Of a stretch of 21,425 bases of DNA, positions 2,954 through 21,425 are shown one piece after another (positions within the stretch are counted from its first letter, which is position 1; every line of letters begins with the position of its first letter). Origin of the DNA: a virus. The stretch spans positions 1-21,425 of the IMG/VR virus record IMGVR_UViG_3300033148_001023; one strand, written 5' to 3'. Below the pieces are notes generated by a model. The model did not search any database. It worked only from the letters and a program-made list of their open reading frames with translations, and had not been told where the DNA came from. Position numbers and translations under genes: made by a program.

Positions 2954-3277
2954 ATGTTACCTAATTTATCAAGTACCATTTTAAGATTTGCACAAACTAT
3001 CATTAAAAGAACAGTTACACAAACTGTAGTAAATCATTTACCTCAGAAAAGTTTTGTAGATACTAATTTTTTAGCTACTGTAACTACACCTAAAAGTGAA
3101 GATTTGCAGAATGTACAAATAGACACAGCACTTAAATATAAAAATATTCATTCAGTAGATAGTATAGTTATAGATGATCTATTTGTACATAAAGGTACAG
3201 AATATAAAATTATAGTATTAGCAGATAGAGAAGATTACGGTTATTTTAAAGCTTTAGGTGAAGAGGTACAGTCATGA
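2954..3277 (+). CDS. Probable head-tail joining (stopper) protein
   Basis: This 107-residue protein lies between the gp10-like neck gene and the tail terminator, the usual slot for the stopper that seals the neck until ejection. The sequence has an N-terminal amphipathic stretch (LSSTILRFAQTIIKRTV) followed by a beta-rich body (DSIVIDDLFVHKGTEYKIIVLAD). The segment HKGTEYKIIVLADREDYGYF resembles the C-terminal strand pattern of small barrel neck proteins. No decisive motif is visible, so the call rests mainly on size and position. The start codon overlaps neither neighbour upstream; its stop overlaps the next ATG (ATGA). Confidence 0.5.
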   Translation: MLPNLSSTILRFAQTIIKRTVTQTVVNHLPQKSFVDTNFLATVTTPKSEDLQNVQIDTALKYKNIHSVDSIVIDDLFVHKGTEYKIIVLADREDYGYFKALGEEVQS

Positions 3278-3753
3278 GTATATTAATAACAGTAGCTTCT
3301 TTGGTTTCATTAGTTGCAAATTTAGCTGATGATAAAGTAATAGTAGCAAGAGAAAATTATTTAGAGTCTGATTTTAATGCTAATATTGCGGTAGTGGATG
3401 ATTTAACTATCACACCTATTGGTAGAAGTAATAGTTTTGATGGGGATGCTGAAGATTTAACATATAGTGTACGTAATAAAGGTGTATTTACTATTGATTT
3501 TTACGGACCTGATGCGCTAACTAATGGTAATATTTTCATAGCTAGATTAAATAGTCAAGACGCTCACGAATACACAAGAGATAATGATATAGAAGTTTTT
3601 AATAATACCACTCTTACAAATATAAAGAAATTACAAGGAAAAACTACTTATAATAGGTATCAGGTAGAAATTACGGTAAAATATACAGAAGAGTTTACTG
3701 ATGCAGTACTTAGAATAGATACAGCTGAGTATACTATTATCACAGATAACTAA
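3274..3753 (+). CDS. Probable tail terminator/neck protein (gp12-like, LIC_12616-type)
   Basis: The 159-residue protein starts in an ATGA overlap with the gene before. It has an alternating strand pattern with charged turns: FTIDFYGPDALTNGNIFIA around residues 71-89 and TTYNRYQVEITVKYTEEF near the end. That layout (a central strand reading out a probe-like sequence, a helix containing short charged residues, and a C-terminal YQVEITVKY strand) is what I expect of tail terminator proteins that cap the tail tube and join to the neck. Position immediately before the sheath gene supports this. The assignment is family-level only. Confidence 0.6.
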   Translation: MSILITVASLVSLVANLADDKVIVARENYLESDFNANIAVVDDLTITPIGRSNSFDGDAEDLTYSVRNKGVFTIDFYGPDALTNGNIFIARLNSQDAHEYTRDNDIEVFNNTTLTNIKKLQGKTTYNRYQVEITVKYTEEFTDAVLRIDTAEYTIITDN

Positions 3754-3768
3754 AAAAGGAATGATTAC

Positions 3769-5268
3769 ATGAATGCAAATATTAGTAATGTAGTACAGGT
3801 ACAACTACTAAGAGAGCCTTTACTAGCACGTAGAGCTAATGTAAATACAGTAGCGGTATTTACTAGTGAGTTAGGTATTTTAACAAGTGCAAATAGAACA
3901 GAGGTGTATACTGATTTAGCAAGTGTTGCTACTGATTTTGGTACTAATAGTGAATTTTATGATTTCGCTTCTGTATTTTTTCAACAAACACCTAATCCTG
4001 TTAGTGCAGGTGGTCATTTAGTGGCTGCATATTGGAGAGCTGCGTCTGAAAATGTAGACGCTACTAGTGCTACTTTAACAGGTGTACAGCTTGTTGAAGA
4101 TACTGTAGTTAGTCAATTACAACAAGTAAGTGACGGTACTTTAGATATTACAGTTGATGCAGGTGTTGAAAATTTAACCGGTCTAGATTTTACAACTTCA
4201 TTAACACTTGAAGATATAGCTACAGTTTTAGATGATGCTTTAACTGATGCAGGTGCAGAAGTATCTAATTTATCTATTAAAATTACAAGTGATACTACAG
4301 GTGTAACAAGTTTATTATCTTTTACAAGTGATCCAGGTACAGGTACTTATGTAGGTAATATCTTAAAACTTAATGATGGTAGTGGTGCTGTTTTATTACA
4401 AGGTGCTGCGTCTGATACATTAACTGTTGAAACAAAAGTAGAAGCTGTTACTGAAGCACAAGGTAGTGACGGATTTAAAAGTTTTGTATTTATTGATACA
4501 CCAACAGATCAAGAACGTGAAAATTTGGCTACATTAGCACAAGCTTCTAATCTTATGAGTGGTGACGTATTTAGTGGTGCTTCATACTTAGAAGTAGATG
4601 CATCTAACACAGCATGGAAAATTAAACTAGCTGGTCAAATTAATTATCGTATGTTTTATTCTAAATCTAATGATAGAAAATTAGCAGTGGGTGTTTTATC
4701 ACGTATGCAAACAGTTTTATTTACAGGTACAAATACTGCAAATACTGAAAATTTAAAAAGTATTACCGGTGTTGTACCTGATGCTTATTCTCAAACTGAG
4801 ATTAACAAAGCTTCTAATGTAGGTTTGGATATTTATACTACTATAAAAGATATACCGGTTATGCTTACGAGCCCTGCTAATGACTTCTTTGATAATGTAT
4901 ATAATCTTATTGCTTATGTTGATGCTCTAGAGATAGATACATTTAACATTTTAAAAGCAGCTACTACTAAAATACCTCAAACAACAAAAGGTATGAATAG
5001 ATTAGTAGATACTATTGAGAAAACTACACAAGGTTTTGTAAACGCTGCTGTATTTGCACCTGGTGAATGGACAAGTCCTGAAACATTTGGTGATTTAGAA
5101 ACTTTTTATGCTGCTATACGTACTAAAGGGTTTTATGTTTTTGCTAATAGATTAAGCGATCAACCACAAGCAGATAGACAAGATAGAAAATCACCCCCTA
5201 TTCAAATAGCGGTTAAAAATGCAGGTGCGATACATAAAGCAAATCTTATCGTACAATTCAATATATAA
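3769..5268 (+). CDS. Contractile tail sheath protein, DUF3383 family
   Basis: The protein has 499 residues, close to the usual length of DUF3383 sheath proteins. It starts behind an AAGGA box. Recognisable stretches are ANVNTVAVFTSE (near residue 24), EVYTDLASVATDFGTNSEFYDFASVFFQQ (45-73), a central beta-rich insertion with DITVDAGVENLTGLDF, FKSFVFIDTPTDQE, KSNDRKLAVGVLSRM, and a C-terminal block with GFYVFANRLSDQPQADRQDRKSPPIQIAVKNAGAIH. The terminal strand-rich part probably forms the handshake arms linking adjacent subunits. Sheath subunits polymerise round the tube and contract on infection, driving the tube into the host envelope. The following tube gene confirms a myovirus-type tail. 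Confidence 0.88.
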   Translation: MNANISNVVQVQLLREPLLARRANVNTVAVFTSELGILTSANRTEVYTDLASVATDFGTNSEFYDFASVFFQQTPNPVSAGGHLVAAYWRAASENVDATSATLTGVQLVEDTVVSQLQQVSDGTLDITVDAGVENLTGLDFTTSLTLEDIATVLDDALTDAGAEVSNLSIKITSDTTGVTSLLSFTSDPGTGTYVGNILKLNDGSGAVLLQGAASDTLTVETKVEAVTEAQGSDGFKSFVFIDTPTDQERENLATLAQASNLMSGDVFSGASYLEVDASNTAWKIKLAGQINYRMFYSKSNDRKLAVGVLSRMQTVLFTGTNTANTENLKSITGVVPDAYSQTEINKASNVGLDIYTTIKDIPVMLTSPANDFFDNVYNLIAYVDALEIDTFNILKAATTKIPQTTKGMNRLVDTIEKTTQGFVNAAVFAPGEWTSPETFGDLETFYAAIRTKGFYVFANRLSDQPQADRQDRKSPPIQIAVKNAGAIHKANLIVQFNI

Positions 5269-5278
5269 GGACTTATAG

Positions 5279-5707
5279 ATGAGTATTATGACAGTAGATA
5301 TTAAAAATGCAACATTGACATTAAATGGTAGAACAATAGAGGACTCACCTGAGGGTGATATGTTTACGGTAGCTTATGGTAATGACATAACTAATCAAAC
5401 ACAAGGGGTAAACGGGGGTAAGGTTATAAAAGAACGTAATGATAAGGATGACGGTCTTTTAACTATACGTTTATTACGTTATAGTGCTGATGATGCATTT
5501 ATGAATAATGCGGTTAATAATCCTGATATTACTATTTTTGATGGTTCATTAAAAATTAACTTTACTAGAGATGGTGTTGATGGTGTAGAAACACATAGTA
5601 TAGCAGGTGGTTCATTGATAACAAGAAGTGACAATACTGCTAATAATCAAGATGGTGAAGATGTTCAGGAATACTCTATATTATCAACTATGATAAGAAG
5701 TGTATAA
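5279..5707 (+). CDS. Tail tube protein
   Basis: The 142-residue product follows the sheath by 10 bases. The sequence NATLTLNGRTIEDSPEGDMFTVAYGND, followed by a segment with DDGLLTIRLLRYSADDAF, fits small tube proteins of contractile tails related to DUF3277-type proteins. In these, a beta-sandwich with an extended loop stacks into hexameric rings. The length is normal. Its stop overlaps the next ATG (TAATG), implying coupled translation with the tail assembly chaperone. Confidence 0.8.
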   Translation: MSIMTVDIKNATLTLNGRTIEDSPEGDMFTVAYGNDITNQTQGVNGGKVIKERNDKDDGLLTIRLLRYSADDAFMNNAVNNPDITIFDGSLKINFTRDGVDGVETHSIAGGSLITRSDNTANNQDGEDVQEYSILSTMIRSV

Positions 5708-6072
5708 TGACTGAAGTTGAAAAAAGAGAAGAAGGATTAAAGCAGATTAAAGCTGTTGCTGATGATGGTTTTGCTGAAATAAATGGGCGTAAATACACAT
5801 TTAATAAATTCACATTTGTAGAAAGACGTACTGTGTTTGGTTATATGTCAAGTATAGAAATGCGTTTAAAAACAAAAGATTTGAGTTTTTTTGATGAACC
5901 TAAATTTACTGAAGTGGAACGTATTATAAATCGTAATGTTACTTTTGATGATGGTATGACTTTATCAAAAAAGAATGTATTTGAAGATTATCCTGAAGAT
6001 TACATGATGTTTATTCAAACTGCTTTAATGGTGATCAGTTACCCTTTTTTAAAAGGTCAGCTTGGAGAGTAA
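5707..6072 (+). CDS. Tail assembly chaperone, short (G-like) product
   Basis: This 121-residue protein occupies the position between tail tube and tape measure, where G-type chaperones are almost always found. It has the typical acidic helical character (TEVEKREEGLKQIKAVADDGFAEINGRKYTFNKF), then a helix-rich C-terminal half ending YPFLKGQLGE. Chaperones of this type coat the tape measure during tail assembly and are absent from the finished virion. Its start overlaps the tube stop by one base. A slippery run T TTT TTA AAA lies near its 3' end, and a longer product is made in the -1 frame (separate entry). Confidence 0.8.
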   Translation: MTEVEKREEGLKQIKAVADDGFAEINGRKYTFNKFTFVERRTVFGYMSSIEMRLKTKDLSFFDEPKFTEVERIINRNVTFDDGMTLSKKNVFEDYPEDYMMFIQTALMVISYPFLKGQLGE

Positions 6073-6296
6073 AAGGTTATATACCTTCTAAGAAAAAAAA
6101 TCTTATTGAATTTACAAATATAGACGATACAAGATTTTTTTTACTTAGTATAGCAAAAAGGGGTTATGATTATTTCAAGTTGTTAAAGTGTGATGCTGAT
6201 GAAATATTAGATATAGCTGAGTTTGAAGGTATAACGGATGCTATAGATTATATAGATTATATAGAGTATGAAAGGTTAAAAAATGGCAGTAGTTAA
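5707..6296 (+). CDS. Tail assembly chaperone, -1 frameshift fusion (GT-like)
   Basis: Reading the -1 frame after the slippery run gives an open stretch of about 80 codons ending TAA at 6294-6296, 14 bases inside the tape measure gene. The extension begins R-S-A-W-R-V-K-G-Y-I-P and ends Y-E-R-L-K-N-G-S-S. It contains no methionine. Upstream this frame is blocked by TGA at 5994-5996, and no ATG, GTG or TTG lies between that stop and the slippery site; a TTG at 6180 is the only start-like codon. A shift on either overlapping heptamer gives the same 196-residue fusion. The arrangement matches the lambda G/GT tail chaperone principle, where the T part contacts tail tube subunits and G binds the tape. 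Frameshifting is an inference from sequence, but there is no other explanation for about 210 bases of open, gene-like sequence. Confidence 0.8.
6045..6054 (+). promoter_or_regulatory. Programmed -1 frameshift slippery site
   Basis: In frame zero the codons are CCT TTT TTA AAA GGT. This contains T TTT TTA (6045-6051) and T TTA AAA (6048-6054), both of the X XXY YYZ type. A small stem-loop, AAGGT (6073-6077) with ACCTT (6083-6087) and a 5-base loop, lies 18 bases downstream. It is short for a stimulator. The efficiency cannot be judged from sequence. Confidence 0.8.
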
Positions 6297-7590
6297 CGAA
6301 CTAGTAACTAAATTTACATTTCAAGGTAATTTAAAACCTTTAGGTGACTTTCAAAAAGGTTTACAAACTAGCATCATAAGTCTTGGTAAAATAGGCTTAG
6401 CTATGGGAGCTGTTACTGCTGCTGTTGGTATTTGGGCTAATACCACTCTTAGAGGTGCTGAATCATTAGTACGTCTGTCTGAAGATACAAATATAGCGAT
6501 AGAAACATTACAAAAAATGCAATTAATAACTGCACAAAATGGCGTAACTACTGGTGTTTTTGAATCTAGTATAATATCATTAACAGATAAAATTGGTGAA
6601 GCTGCTACACAAGGTAGTGATGATTTTAATCGTCTTGGTATTTCAGTCAGAGATTCTGAAGGTAATATAAAAAGTACAGATCGTATCCTCAAAGAATTAA
6701 CATCAACTTTCAGAACATTAAGCACACAACAGCAGATTAATTTTGCTAATAAACTGGGTATAGATATAAAAGTAATAAAAGCTTTTAATAAAACTAATCA
6801 AGAATTAAAAAGATTAACAGAAACAGCTTTAAAATTTGGTGTAGTTACTGAAGCTCAGACTAAACAATTAGATAGTTATTTTGCAAGTATAGAAACTTTG
6901 AAATTTGGCTTTACTGCTATAGGTAGACAAATGGCTTTAAATTTTGCTCCTATTATGGAAAGAGTATCCAATAGTATTACTGATTTTCTAGCTAATTTTG
7001 GCGGTTCTTTTTCTATTATATTTGCTGAATTTGTAGACGGTATAGGTAATTTAATAGGGGGTGTTGATGATTTCATAAGTGCCACTATTGGATGGAAACC
7101 TGCATTACTTGCTTTTGGCGTGGCTATGTCTTTAGCTTTTCCAATTATTCCTATTGTTGCTGCTGTAGGTGGTATATTAATAGCTATAGAAGATTTAATA
7201 ACAGCTTTTAAAGGTGGTAAATCTGTAATAGCAGACTTCTTCCAAGATACTTTTGATTTAGATATAGTTGAGTCATTAACTACTGCTTTTGATAGTTTAA
7301 GAAATACTTTTAATGCTTATATTGATTCTCTTTTAGCAGGTTTTGACATAATAAAAGAAACATTTAGCGGTATCACAGGTTTGTTTACAGGGGATACTAA
7401 TGTTAATACATCACTAACTGCTTTACCTATTGCAGGTGGTAGGGACAATAATACCACACAGATTATGACTAATGATATAAAGATAGAAGTTAAAAGTAAT
7501 GACCCTGAAGCTGCAGGTGTTGCTGTTAGTTCTGCATTATCAAGAGAATTAGAACAGGCTAGTTTTCAGTATGGTAAAGGTGGTAGATAA
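6283..7590 (+). CDS. Tail tape measure protein (short)
   Basis: The 435-residue protein follows the chaperone pair, as tape measures do. An AAAGG box lies 7 bases before the ATG. It has long helical stretches, a glycine- and alanine-rich hydrophobic segment near the N-terminus (about residues 31-52) and a second strong hydrophobic region at about 270-305 (PALLAFGVAMSLAF, then IPIVAAVGGILIAIEDLI), typical of tape measures that may insert into the host membrane. The segment TLRGAESLVRLSEDTNIAIE (about 54-73) is similar to the N-terminal block of many phage tape measures. It sets tail length and is ejected with the DNA. At roughly 0.15 nm per residue it suggests a tail of about 65 nm. Only one base overlaps the next gene. 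Confidence 0.85.
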   Translation: MAVVNELVTKFTFQGNLKPLGDFQKGLQTSIISLGKIGLAMGAVTAAVGIWANTTLRGAESLVRLSEDTNIAIETLQKMQLITAQNGVTTGVFESSIISLTDKIGEAATQGSDDFNRLGISVRDSEGNIKSTDRILKELTSTFRTLSTQQQINFANKLGIDIKVIKAFNKTNQELKRLTETALKFGVVTEAQTKQLDSYFASIETLKFGFTAIGRQMALNFAPIMERVSNSITDFLANFGGSFSIIFAEFVDGIGNLIGGVDDFISATIGWKPALLAFGVAMSLAFPIIPIVAAVGGILIAIEDLITAFKGGKSVIADFFQDTFDLDIVESLTTAFDSLRNTFNAYIDSLLAGFDIIKETFSGITGLFTGDTNVNTSLTALPIAGGRDNNTTQIMTNDIKIEVKSNDPEAAGVAVSSALSRELEQASFQYGKGGR

Positions 7591-8342
7591 TGATTGAAAA
7601 TTTTAAAAAAGTTATATTACCTGATAGTTTGAAAGGTAGTGAATTAGAAAAAATAGGTATAGGTGGTTTTACACTATATGCTAGTGTTTCAGAAACATCA
7701 ACTAAAACAGCTACAGTTACTGCTAATCCTGTTGAGAACGGTAGTATGTTAAACGATCATATTATAAAAAACCCTAACACAATATCTATTAATGGTGAAG
7801 TTGCTAATGTATTTATTGAAACTCCTATAATACCTAATACTATTCAAAAGTTATTACCCCCTGTCGGTATTATTCAAGATTATTTACCTCAAAGAACACA
7901 AACACAAATAAGTAAAGTGAACGGATTATTAGCAACAGTTGATGATTTTTTTACAGCTGCTGATGTTGCTATTAATAAAGGTAAACAATTATATAATTTT
8001 TTTACGGGTAATGAAGCAGATACATCAATCACATCTAAATTTTTAGAATTTTTTGATCAGGTGTATGAGAGTAAAAGTGTTATTGATGTTGAATGTGTTG
8101 ATAAAATATTTAAAGGTATGGCCATTACTTCATTCACAATTAATAAAACTAACCCTAACAATTACACATTTACAATTTCATTACAATCTATAATAAAAGC
8201 TGAAACTACATTAATAGAGTTGATAAAAAATGCTAGTGGTGATGCTGTTTCACAAGGTGCTGATTTAACAGATAAAGGTACACAACAAACTAAAGAAGTA
8301 GATCAGAGTTTTGCATCAGCTTTATTACAGGAACTACAATAA
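7590..8342 (+). CDS. Dit-like baseplate/tail protein
   Basis: The 250-residue protein begins one base inside the tape measure stop (TAATG). Residues about 30-72 hold the pattern ETSTKTATVTANPVENGSML followed by DHI and PNTISINGEV. This is the signature of the Dit-like phage tail protein N-terminal domain, where a TxxPVExG...DH...P pattern precedes beta strands. The middle carries helices (LATVDDFFTAADVAINKGKQ), and a later block, VECVDKIFKGMAITSFTINK, resembles the strand region that closes the domain. In Pam3- and Mu-like baseplates this type of protein lies between tape measure and plug/hub genes. It is thought to link tube to hub. The role is inferred from family and position. Confidence 0.7.
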   Translation: MIENFKKVILPDSLKGSELEKIGIGGFTLYASVSETSTKTATVTANPVENGSMLNDHIIKNPNTISINGEVANVFIETPIIPNTIQKLLPPVGIIQDYLPQRTQTQISKVNGLLATVDDFFTAADVAINKGKQLYNFFTGNEADTSITSKFLEFFDQVYESKSVIDVECVDKIFKGMAITSFTINKTNPNNYTFTISLQSIIKAETTLIELIKNASGDAVSQGADLTDKGTQQTKEVDQSFASALLQELQ

Positions 8343-10105: not shown

Positions 10106-10462
10106 ATGTCAGTACGTAAAATAGAAGAAGATAGTGATTGGACTTTTGGTCAAGGTTTAGGTAACTATATAACTAAAGATAATGAAATAGCTCAAAATGT
10201 AGTAACTAGAATTAAATCATTTAAGAATGATTATTTTTTAGACAACTCACAAAATATAGATTGGTTAAATATATTAGGTGTTAAAAACAATGAAGATTTA
10301 ATATTAAGTGAAGTTAGAAGAGTTGTACAACAGACCGAAGGTGTACAAAGAGTTAATGATGTGTCTTTAATTCAGAACGTAGAAAGAAATGCTATAATAC
10401 AAATAAATTATGATACTATATATAATCAAAATATTTTAAAAGAGGTTGGTGTGAATGTCTGA
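10106..10462 (+). CDS. gp25-like baseplate protein (sheath initiator)
   Basis: The 118-residue protein follows the spike by 11 bases and has an AAAGGG box upstream. The block DWTFGQGLGNYITKDNEIAQ then TRIKSFKNDYFLD matches the general layout of the T4 gp25/lysozyme-like wedge family. In that family an N-terminal strand leads into a conserved helix ending in an arginine followed by a short loop. A later VQRVNDVS and the paired beta strands at the C-terminus also fit. These proteins start sheath assembly on the baseplate. It overlaps the J-like gene by 8 bases. Confidence 0.7.
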   Translation: MSVRKIEEDSDWTFGQGLGNYITKDNEIAQNVVTRIKSFKNDYFLDNSQNIDWLNILGVKNNEDLILSEVRRVVQQTEGVQRVNDVSLIQNVERNAIIQINYDTIYNQNILKEVGVNV

Positions 10463-11630
10463 TTTAAAACTAGATCGTAACGGTCTTACAATAAATGATT
10501 TAGATGATGTTTTCACTTACTTATCAGAGCAGTATAAATTAATATATGGTGAAGATATTATTATAGATGCTGATACCCCTGATGGTCAAGTAATAGCTAT
10601 ATATAGTAAGTTAAATGCAGATGCACAAGCAGCTTTATTACAGATATATAATTCTTTTGATCCTGATACTGCTGTAGGTGTAGAGTTAAATAAGATTATA
10701 AAATTAAATGCTATAACACGTGGACCTGCTACTAAATCAACAGTAGAGGTAAACATAACAGCAACTACTACAATCGATCTTACAATAGGTTATACTGTAG
10801 TTGATACATTAGGTCAAAATTGGGTTATACAAACTCCTGAAACTATTTCAGCAGGTACTACATCTATTATATTTGAAGCTAATGAGTGGGGTAGTGTACA
10901 AGCATTACCTAATACTATTACAACACAAGGTACTATATTAACTGAAGTGACAACTGTTGACAATCCTTTAGCTTCTTCTGTAGGTATAGACGAAGAAACT
11001 GATGTAGAATTAAGACAAAGACGTGAACTAAGTTTAGAAAAACCCGCATATAGCACAATAGGTAGTATGTTGGCTAGACTTTTAGAAGTCACTAATGTTT
11101 TAGATGCTATTGTTTATGAAAATTTTACTGATGTTTATGATGCTACTTTAGATTTAGATGCCCATACTATATGGTGTATAGTAGAAGATGGTTTAAATGC
11201 TGATATAGCTGAAGCTATTGCTAAAGAAAAAACAGCAGGTGCGGGTCTTAAAGGTTCAGTTACTGATACTTATGAAGAAGATTTTTTACGTTCAGATGGT
11301 ACAATAAGAATACACACACATACTATCAACTTTGATAGACCTACAGAGTCTGAGATATTTATAAAACTAGATGTAACGCCTAAGATAGGCGGTGATACAA
11401 TAGATACAGATTTGATTAAAGAAAAATTGACAGAAAAACTTTTCACTATTAATGAAGATTTAACTATAACTGAACTATATAGTTATGTATATCAAGCGGG
11501 TGCTAATTTTATAGCTACTGATTTAGAAGCTAGTACAGATGATATTACTTATGTAGCTACTAAATTAGTAGCTGATTTTGATGAAAAGTTTTTAATTACT
11601 ACCGCTAAGATCACAATTACGGAGATATAA
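10455..11630 (+). CDS. Baseplate J-like wedge protein
   Basis: The 391-residue product has the layout of J/gp6/gp47-type baseplate proteins. The N-terminal block contains DADTPDGQVIAIYSKLNADA (39-58) and SFDPDTAVGVELNKI (67-81). It is followed by RGPATKSTVEVNITATTT, a beta-rich middle, then GIDEETDVELRQRRELSLE (about 176-194), which is strongly diagnostic of Baseplate_J. Later comes a C-terminal strand domain with FIKLDVTPKIGGDT. Two copies per wedge typically form the triangular frame that ties the baseplate together. The length is within the normal range. Confidence 0.88.
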   Translation: MSDLKLDRNGLTINDLDDVFTYLSEQYKLIYGEDIIIDADTPDGQVIAIYSKLNADAQAALLQIYNSFDPDTAVGVELNKIIKLNAITRGPATKSTVEVNITATTTIDLTIGYTVVDTLGQNWVIQTPETISAGTTSIIFEANEWGSVQALPNTITTQGTILTEVTTVDNPLASSVGIDEETDVELRQRRELSLEKPAYSTIGSMLARLLEVTNVLDAIVYENFTDVYDATLDLDAHTIWCIVEDGLNADIAEAIAKEKTAGAGLKGSVTDTYEEDFLRSDGTIRIHTHTINFDRPTESEIFIKLDVTPKIGGDTIDTDLIKEKLTEKLFTINEDLTITELYSYVYQAGANFIATDLEASTDDITYVATKLVADFDEKFLITTAKITITEI

Positions 11631-18809: not shown

Positions 18810-19786
18810 AATTTTAATCCTCTTCTTTTACCTTTAAATTGATCTAAACCTACTAAACGTCTAGTTAGTATGGCATCCTCTTTAGTGTAATTATAGAACA
18901 CTCTATAAGACTTACATTGATTACATGTGCCTGTTATGTCTCCGTCATGTTCTAAGTCTTCTATTTTACTCATTACTACTGCTCTTGTTTTAGGTACATC
19001 CATACAATGAACACACATAATATGACTTTCATATATATTAATAACATCATCAAAAGTAGCATCTTCTTTTAATAGTTTTGTTTTCATACCTACACCAGCA
19101 ATACCTGGTATATCATCAGTAGAGTCACCTGCTAAAGTCTGAAGTAATACAAACCTCTCACCATCTTCTTTAGATACTTTGACTACTTTACGGTGTGCTG
19201 AATGATAAAAATAATTATTACCCTCTACACCATATATTACGTCTTTATCCCCTGAAGCAATAGGGTGTCCTCTTCTAGCGTAATAAGCCACTACATCATC
19301 TGCTTCAAAACCTTCTACTATTAACCCTTTAGGTTTAACAAGTTTTTTTAACTCTTTGAGTTCTTTAGACTCTTCTTTACCTAATCTTCTATATTTATAC
19401 TCAGGAAAAATATCATATCTAAAGTTAGTAGAAGGTGTGTATACTAATTTAAAATCTTTGAACATAATCATATTACCTAATAAACTTTCTGTTCTACACG
19501 TAGATACTACACTATCTACTAAGTCATAAAAAGCATCTTCTAAACTAAACTCTATTTTATTACCTACAAATGTACCACCTTCAATGGGAGTACAACTATC
19601 ATTATTCATAGGACTATAAGCAGAATAATATATTAAACTATCTGCATCTATATATAATGTTTTTGTAGGTTTAGGTAGTAGAGTTTCTAACTGTATTAGA
19701 TATGCTCTAACACCGTCCTCATCTATGTTACCCTTCTTAATCTCAGTTCTGAGTTGTTTAACTCTTTTTTGTTGTTCTAGTGTCAT
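18797..19786 (-). CDS. FEN/T7 gp6-like 5'-3' exonuclease with Cys4 insertion
   Basis: The 329-residue protein carries FEN-family active-site motifs in order: YIDADS (45-50), EGFEADDVVA (158-167), ASGDKDV (177-183), and the helix-3-turn-helix block AGDSTDDIPGIAGVGMK (219-235). These bind two metal ions and DNA. Such enzymes remove RNA primers and degrade host or replicating DNA from 5' ends. Its unusual feature is a pair of CxxC motifs after the helix-3-turn-helix region, Cys258/Cys261 and Cys288/Cys291, a probable zinc site in the C-terminal part. The start overlaps the polymerase stop (ATGA) and its end overlaps the next gene. An N-terminal helical extension (about 40 residues) precedes the nuclease core. 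Confidence 0.87.
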   Translation of the reverse strand: MTLEQQKRVKQLRTEIKKGNIDEDGVRAYLIQLETLLPKPTKTLYIDADSLIYYSAYSPMNNDSCTPIEGGTFVGNKIEFSLEDAFYDLVDSVVSTCRTESLLGNMIMFKDFKLVYTPSTNFRYDIFPEYKYRRLGKEESKELKELKKLVKPKGLIVEGFEADDVVAYYARRGHPIASGDKDVIYGVEGNNYFYHSAHRKVVKVSKEDGERFVLLQTLAGDSTDDIPGIAGVGMKTKLLKEDATFDDVINIYESHIMCVHCMDVPKTRAVVMSKIEDLEHDGDITGTCNQCKSYRVFYNYTKEDAILTRRLVGLDQFKGKRRGLKLWKY

Positions 19787-21425
19787 GATTTTACTCCTAA
19801 GTCTTGTAAATGTTCTTCACATAATGATAAATACTTATCGTAGTCTAAATCTTTTGGTATATAATCCGTCAAGTCCATCATAGGTTTTGCACCATCAGAT
19901 TTAGGTACTTTGTTACCTGTTTTGTAAAATATAGGTTTACCATCAATAGAATAATACCATCTAACAACTTTACCTAAATACACAGAATTATCAGAACTTA
20001 ATACTATTTGTTTTTGAAAATCATCATTACGTTTACCTACAGCTTTTACTTTCAAATAACCCCATTTAGATATATGGTCATTATATTCATCACTATTAGG
20101 TAACACTTCATTGTTAGAAATAACACCACCTTTTACATTTCTACTAGATGTAAATCTAGCTATTTTTTTACAATTATATAAAGTTTCTTCCATTGGTATA
20201 TTTTTAGATAAATAATCACGTATAGCTTCAAATACTATAGGATATTCTACATTCTTTTCTAATATAGGTTTACGTTCTTCAGGGTCAACATATGCACCTT
20301 TTGCTTTTGCTTCACCATTAGGATACACAGCCACATAATTATTTACATCTCTAGCATATAGAGCATTATAAGTACCATACTCCATAATCATATTTGTTTT
20401 CGATTCCCATTCTGATACAATTCTTTTTAAACCTTTTTCACTAAATGAATCATTACTTCTTAAAACTTCTACACCATCTGTATTAGATGATACAACTTTA
20501 TAACCGTTATATTCTAACTCTTCAATTAACATTAATAAATATAGTTGTCCTGTGAACGTAACAGTTATGAGTAATTTAGGTGAATATAAAAAGCTATATT
20601 TACTACCTAATTTACCAAAGCTACCATTTAATGTAATTTTTAATATTGCATCAATTACTTTAGCTTCATCTCTTTGTTTTTGAGATAATGATTTATCTTT
20701 AGCATCTTTTTTAGCTTGTAATCTTGTGGCTTTAATATTTGCATATACTTTTAAGAACGTCTTAGTTAATTGTTCGGGGTATAATTCAAGATCGATTATT
20801 AAAGATGGGTAATAACTAGCAACATCCACATTAGATAATATTTCATTTTCATTTGGAATTACTATCATAGATTTTTCTTGTGAGTGTAAACCACCTAAAC
20901 CTATATTATAAGTTGTATTACCTATTTGTATAGTTTCTTTTTTTAACCAAGCAGGTAATAAAGGTGATCCATTATCCCCTAATTCAATAATAGTATCTTC
21001 TATTTTATCTACTATTAAGTTTAAATCATCATCTCTAAATACAATACAATTAGGTGCTTTATATCTTACTTTTTTATTAGTTTCACCTCGTTTTACTTTT
21101 ACACCTTTTTTACTTAATTCTTCTCTAAATATAGATTCTGCTATTTGTGCATCTGATTTACTCATAACATCAATGTTATATTTTTTACCAATTTTTTTAC
21201 GTATATCTAACATAGGTATTAATTTATTATATAAATCTAAAGTAAGTTTTAAATCATTTATATTATATTTACCAACTTCAGCAGCTTCAAAATCTGTTAA
21301 TACTGTATCAGGTTCATAAGGTAAGTCCTGTAGTTTTTTAGAATTTAATCTAGCTCCGTATAATTTTAATGAAGCTTGTCCGGGTGCTACATCAATTAAA
21401 TCAATAGATTCAAAAGTTTTACTTA
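19783..21425 (-). CDS. Family B DNA polymerase (5' end missing)
   Basis: The frame is open to the right edge of the window, so the methionine at 21213 is internal. The extra upstream part (21214-21423) reads IDLIDVAPGQASLKLYGARL and later YNINDLKLT, the C-terminal end of a 3'-5' proofreading domain with its Y-x3-D motif (ExoIII). The polymerase domain has motif A NVDVASYYPSLI (128-139, numbered from the Met at 21213), motif B LKITLNGSFGKLG (191-203) and motif C VSSNTDGV (241-248). GGLHS (107-111) is also typical of this phage subgroup. It would replicate the phage genome. The first Asp of the usual DTD of motif C is Asn here. Confidence 0.9.
   Translation of the reverse strand, partial: SKTFESIDLIDVAPGQASLKLYGARLNSKKLQDLPYEPDTVLTDFEAAEVGKYNINDLKLTLDLYNKLIPMLDIRKKIGKKYNIDVMSKSDAQIAESIFREELSKKGVKVKRGETNKKVRYKAPNCIVFRDDDLNLIVDKIEDTIIELGDNGSPLLPAWLKKETIQIGNTTYNIGLGGLHSQEKSMIVIPNENEILSNVDVASYYPSLIIDLELYPEQLTKTFLKVYANIKATRLQAKKDAKDKSLSQKQRDEAKVIDAILKITLNGSFGKLGSKYSFLYSPKLLITVTFTGQLYLLMLIEELEYNGYKVVSSNTDGVEVLRSNDSFSEKGLKRIVSEWESKTNMIMEYGTYNALYARDVNNYVAVYPNGEAKAKGAYVDPEERKPILEKNVEYPIVFEAIRDYLSKNIPMEETLYNCKKIARFTSSRNVKGGVISNNEVLPNSDEYNDHISKWGYLKVKAVGKRNDDFQKQIVLSSDNSVYLGKVVRWYYSIDGKPIFYKTGNKVPKSDGAKPMMDLTDYIPKDLDYDKYLSLCEEHLQDLGVKS

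Follow-up and report, generated by a model that had tools for sequence, protein, structure and literature searches.

Evidence for a -1 frameshifted tail assembly chaperone in a contractile-tailed phage related to marine Vibrio phages

In the tail module of the virus record studied here, an open frame overlaps the end of the gene at 5707-6072 and runs on to the tape measure gene, which raises the question of whether and how this frame is translated. The window, that is, the whole stretch of DNA analyzed, is the entire record (21,425 bases, GC 30%), and its source phage is contractile-tailed and akin to marine Vibrio phages. Genes for the major capsid protein (605-1558) and a tail terminator-like protein (3274-3753) precede that of the tail sheath protein (3769-5268, + strand; Pfam DUF3383, 4.8e-61; phrog_205, tail sheath, 3.6e-73). 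The gene at 5279-5707 (+) was assigned to the tail tube protein by its position, a match to phrog_280 (virion structural protein, 1.6e-13) and the annotation of the gene at the homologous position in phage PP270 as tail tube. The putative chaperone gene (5707-6072, +) lies between the tube gene and that of the 435-aa tape measure protein (6283-7590, +; phrog_8125, tail length tape measure, 2.8e-71), as in the G/GT class, and genes for a Dit-like protein (7590-8342) and baseplate J (10455-11630) are found further on. Sheath, tube, chaperone and tape measure is the Mu-like gene order. Compared with gp41/gp42 of phage Mu, the order is alike, and the Gp41_Mu family was matched weakly by one relative only (E 0.02).

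The 121-aa product of the zero frame, the G-like form, belongs to phrog_16705 (4.8e-32), a family without a name, and a Pfam search with it returned no match, chaperone families included. Among the aligned proteins, 9 of 19 matched Phage_TAC_15 and 3 of 19 matched Phage_TAC_9, and the annotation of one Vibrio homologue reads tail assembly chaperone. Homology of the zero-frame protein to these TAC-matching relatives is established; judged by its sequence, it is an apparent distant relative of Phage_TAC_9/Phage_TAC_15, filed under neither Pfam family because it has no Pfam match itself. AlphaFold models, for which the alignment was reduced to the window and the loci of its relatives, were confident for the zero-frame protein (pLDDT 87) and of low confidence for the extension (pLDDT 65). 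Comparison of the zero-frame model with solved structures gave no PDB match at E <= 0.001 (the HK97 TAC, 2ob9, scored E 6.8), and comparison with predicted structures gave weak matches to phage proteins, several of them named tail assembly chaperones.

Around the putative shift site the zero frame reads TAC CCT TTT TTA AAA GGT and continues to the TAA stop at 6070-6072. Three slippery heptamers overlap here in the tandem-slip register of the 5707-6072 frame, namely C_CCT_TTT (6042-6048), T_TTT_TTA (6045-6051) and T_TTA_AAA (6048-6054), all on the + strand, and the full site, CCCTTTTTTAAAA (6042-6054), occurs only once in the record. The -1 open frame (5997-6296, +) is stop-free from 5997 to 6293, between TGA at 5994-5996 and TAA at 6294-6296; it overlaps the 3' end of the chaperone gene, with the slippery sequence inside the overlap in the correct register, and ends 14 nt into the tape measure gene, which starts with ATG at 6283. 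The part read after a shift, the T-like extension, corresponds to 6054-6293. Start codons are scarce in this frame, with neither ATG nor GTG and a single TTG, late in the frame at 6180. A -1 shift yields a 196-aa fusion whichever heptamer is used; as read from the sequence, slippage at C_CCT_TTT gives ...YPFFKRSAW and slippage at T_TTT_TTA or T_TTA_AAA gives ...YPFLKRSAW.

An earlier sequence-only reading had proposed a -1 programmed frameshift at this place, and its description of the -1 frame as lacking methionine and ending inside the tape measure gene was borne out. It had named two overlapping heptamers, T_TTT_TTA and T_TTA_AAA, both of which are indeed in the zero frame, and had overlooked the third, C_CCT_TTT. 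Its single 196-residue fusion holds for the length and for the two shifts that it named, which both give PFLKR, and fails for C_CCT_TTT, which gives PFFKR. The distance of 58 bases between TGA 5994 and the site is correct when counted from 6052, and becomes 51 when counted from 6045.

Under codon shuffling, at least one in-frame heptamer appears in an equally long overlap with P ~0.29; a heptamer alone is weak evidence, because chance in-frame heptamers are frequent in sequence of 30% GC. The length of the 79-codon open -1 frame was reached in 0 of 5000 dinucleotide shuffles. A shift into the +1 frame was considered and rejected, as in the window that frame is closed 5 codons beyond the stop, and among relatives it varies.

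Relatives were found with the sheath protein, which yielded phage records and 48 IMG/VR loci; the close relatives that reach the chaperone region are L012 and L013 (84-85% sheath identity). Searches of viral contigs with the 121-aa protein and with the tape measure protein returned no matches, and a search of genome contigs returned one relative, in Dyadobacter. Every locus that covers the region with a callable chaperone gene has a -1 frame across the chaperone stop and an in-frame heptamer in the overlap. Both stand at the same place in 22 of 22 representative loci (the window and 21 others, with sheath identity down to ~30%), and the relatives' -1 frame mostly extends 50 to 70 codons beyond the chaperone stop, less in cut-off loci. 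The codon-shuffle chances multiplied over the representative loci come to ~4e-16, a figure that assumes independent loci and is hence overstated. With the fusion as a tblastn query, both parts were found in 8 of 8 matching Vibrio phage records. These comparisons also bear on the idea that the overlap is non-coding or that a sequencing error has split a single gene. The sequence comes from a metagenome, and homopolymers are prone to such errors, yet every other representative locus, among them those of the sequenced isolates VBM1, XM1, Athena1 and Aaphi23, has the zero-frame stop and the open -1 frame as well, which leaves this explanation a negligible probability.

The heptamer itself varies among relatives. 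The site reads CCCTTTTTTG in L013, L002, L003 and the other Vibrio phages, and L014; CCCTTTTTTC in L021 and L024; CCCTTTT in L017, L023, L031 and L032; CCCTTTC in L012, L026 and L029; TTTTTTC in L016, L022 and L025; and TTTTTTT in Aaphi23. The most widely conserved heptamer is C_CCT_TTT, and T_TTA_AAA was present, among the loci compared, in the window only. The slip codons encode Pro-Phe; in the alignment, Phe114 never varies and Pro113 hardly does. Of the candidate slip sites, the key conserved one is probably C_CCT_TTT/T_TTT_TTA and not the T_TTT_TTA/T_TTA_AAA pair on which the sequence-only reading had settled, and CCCTTTY/TTTTTTN can be identified as the conserved slip site of the clade. 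In L013 a TAG codon stands in the -1 frame 3 nt upstream of CCCTTTT, and entry to that frame must therefore occur at or after the slippery site.

The window site contains a run of six T followed by one of four A, and slippage on homopolymer runs is known in other systems. It could thus be the RNA polymerase that slips on these T6/A4 runs, producing a mixed pool of mRNAs from which the fusion is translated; ribosomal and transcriptional slippage are both discussed in PMC5009743. We consider the transcriptional variant very unlikely, because relatives with CCCTTTC (L012, L026, L029) or CCCTTTT (L031, L032, L023) have no homopolymer longer than four at the site and keep the -1 extension. The conserved feature is the heptamer in tandem-slip register, which also disfavors transcriptional slippage.

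The extension is protein-coding and conserved, as in the G/GT class. Between the window and L013, the -1 frame of the extension gave dN 0.168 and dS 0.628, whereas frames 0 and +1 of the same DNA gave dN/dS of 1.09 and 1.45. The part between the chaperone stop and the tape measure start, which no other gene overlaps, gave dN/dS 0.27 (bootstrap 95% 0.11-0.66); the tail tube gene, for the same pair, gave 0.31. Since dN/dS is low in the -1 frame alone, the extension evolves as a translated protein, and its alignment has invariant residues of its own (K39, G41, E62). Of the checks that the sequence-only reading had suggested, the one on codon conservation thus gave dN/dS 0.27, against L013, in the -1 frame only; the frame itself is open in all 21 other representative relatives.

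A translated -1 frame might also be a separate small gene with its own start codon or translational coupling. TTG 6180 would be available, and ORFs of 45-54 aa are annotated here in several Vibrio phages. Independent initiation is nonetheless disfavored, because the window frame has no ATG or GTG, most relatives lack a start codon before 60 nt past the slip site, and conservation of the extension already sets in at the slip site, ahead of any such start. We regard a separate gene as highly implausible, in agreement with the earlier judgement that independent translation is unlikely.

Frameshift stimulators were sought in the window. No SD-like element was found upstream of the site, and no strong RNA structure was found at proper spacing downstream, where 50- and 80-nt windows folded near random expectation (z -0.95 and -1.27). 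The 126-nt downstream fold reached z -2.7 against shuffles, mainly from an A/U stem beginning ~35 nt beyond the site. A long A/U-rich hairpin inside the -1 extension at 6089-6148 (AAGAAAAAAAATCTTAT / ACAAGATTTTTTTTACTT), which folds better than shuffles over these 126 nt, is more remote from the slip site than ordinary stimulators are. That no conserved stimulator was found fits the remark in PMC5009743 that frameshifts in certain tailed phages apparently proceed without stimulators.

The gene position, the TAC families among homologues, the selected -1 extension and the conserved slip site uphold the frameshifted chaperone first proposed from the window sequence. We are confident that 5707-6072 encodes a tail assembly chaperone with a -1 ribosomal frameshift fusion formed by tandem slippage; the occurrence of the shift in the window phage, and its rate, are what we infer from sequence. 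Most ribosomes would stop at TAA 6070-6072 and release the 121-aa protein. In a minority, slippage by one base backwards would occur with P- and A-site codons inside 6042-6054, C_CCT_TTT and T_TTT_TTA being its likeliest places; these ribosomes would then read the -1 frame to 6293 and make the 196-aa fusion. In lambda, as summarised in PMC5009743, the common domain acts on the tape measure and the extension on the tube protein. By analogy with gpG/gpGT, the common domain would bind the tape measure protein, the extension would recruit tail tube subunits, and neither form would enter the virion. It is a doubtful further possibility that the three stacked heptamers, lacking a stimulator, offer three successive chances to slip, raising shift efficiency, yielding two isoforms (PFFKR and PFLKR) and allowing lineage-specific tuning of the ratio.

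Frameshifted tail chaperones are standard in long-tailed phages, including lambda G/GT (PMC5009743), P2 E/E+E' with its T6G (PMC3931495) and FelixO1-like myophages (PMC4591319), and the window chaperone is a further, ordinary case of the lambda and P2 class. In lambda a low-rate -1 shift likewise produces a minor extended chaperone (PMC5009743); unlike the window phage, lambda is a siphophage with a different slip site, and the window protein has no Pfam chaperone-family match. P2 also shifts by -1, on T6G in the chaperone gene of a myophage tail gene cluster (PMC3931495), and T6G is present in some relatives of the window phage, but the P2 tail module is of another type. ORF54/ORF54-54' of Aaphi23 (NC_004827), a distant relative, shares the order sheath, tube, chaperone, tape measure and a -1 extension that reaches into the tape measure gene before it ends, and is already annotated as a joined CDS; its sequence similarity is low, and its site is TTTTTTT rather than CCCTTTTTTAAAA. 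In Vibrio myophages of the VBM1/XM1/Athena1 type, both parts of the chaperone are homologous to those of the window (~30-33% identity) and CCCTTTTTTG stands at the same place. The fusion is unannotated in these records, where the extension is missed (VBM1, 1.052.A) or annotated as a short ORF of its own, 45-54 aa long (XM1, Athena1, PP270, PvVp04_M and 1.154.O; L006-L009 and L011, about 693-857). The window case leaves the understanding of tail chaperone frameshifting unchanged. What it adds is a missed protein for a phage group that is known chiefly from metagenomes. In several Vibrio phage genomes already deposited, including XM1, whose virion structure is solved, the extension is absent or mis-called.

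In a more distant group (L035, L037-L043, L045-L050, L054-L059), GGGAAATTTT or AAATTTT takes the place of CCCTTTT/TTTTTT, and this branch may have exchanged its shift signal for another. Its two tested members, L037 and L058, showed good folds in the 50 nt downstream (z -3.1 and -3.6).

Two other features of the record were observed. The ORF at 1561-2112, after the major capsid gene, carries at its 3' end a perfect 15-bp tandem repeat (2038-2100, 4.2 copies) with the unit GGTTTTAACGCTGAA, which encodes GFNAE repeats. Near the end of the record, a Family B-like DNA polymerase gene (19783-21213, - strand, 476 aa) aligns with the phrog_1252 profile over positions 229-654 of 663; its ORF lacks the N-terminal part of that profile and ends 212 bases from the record end.
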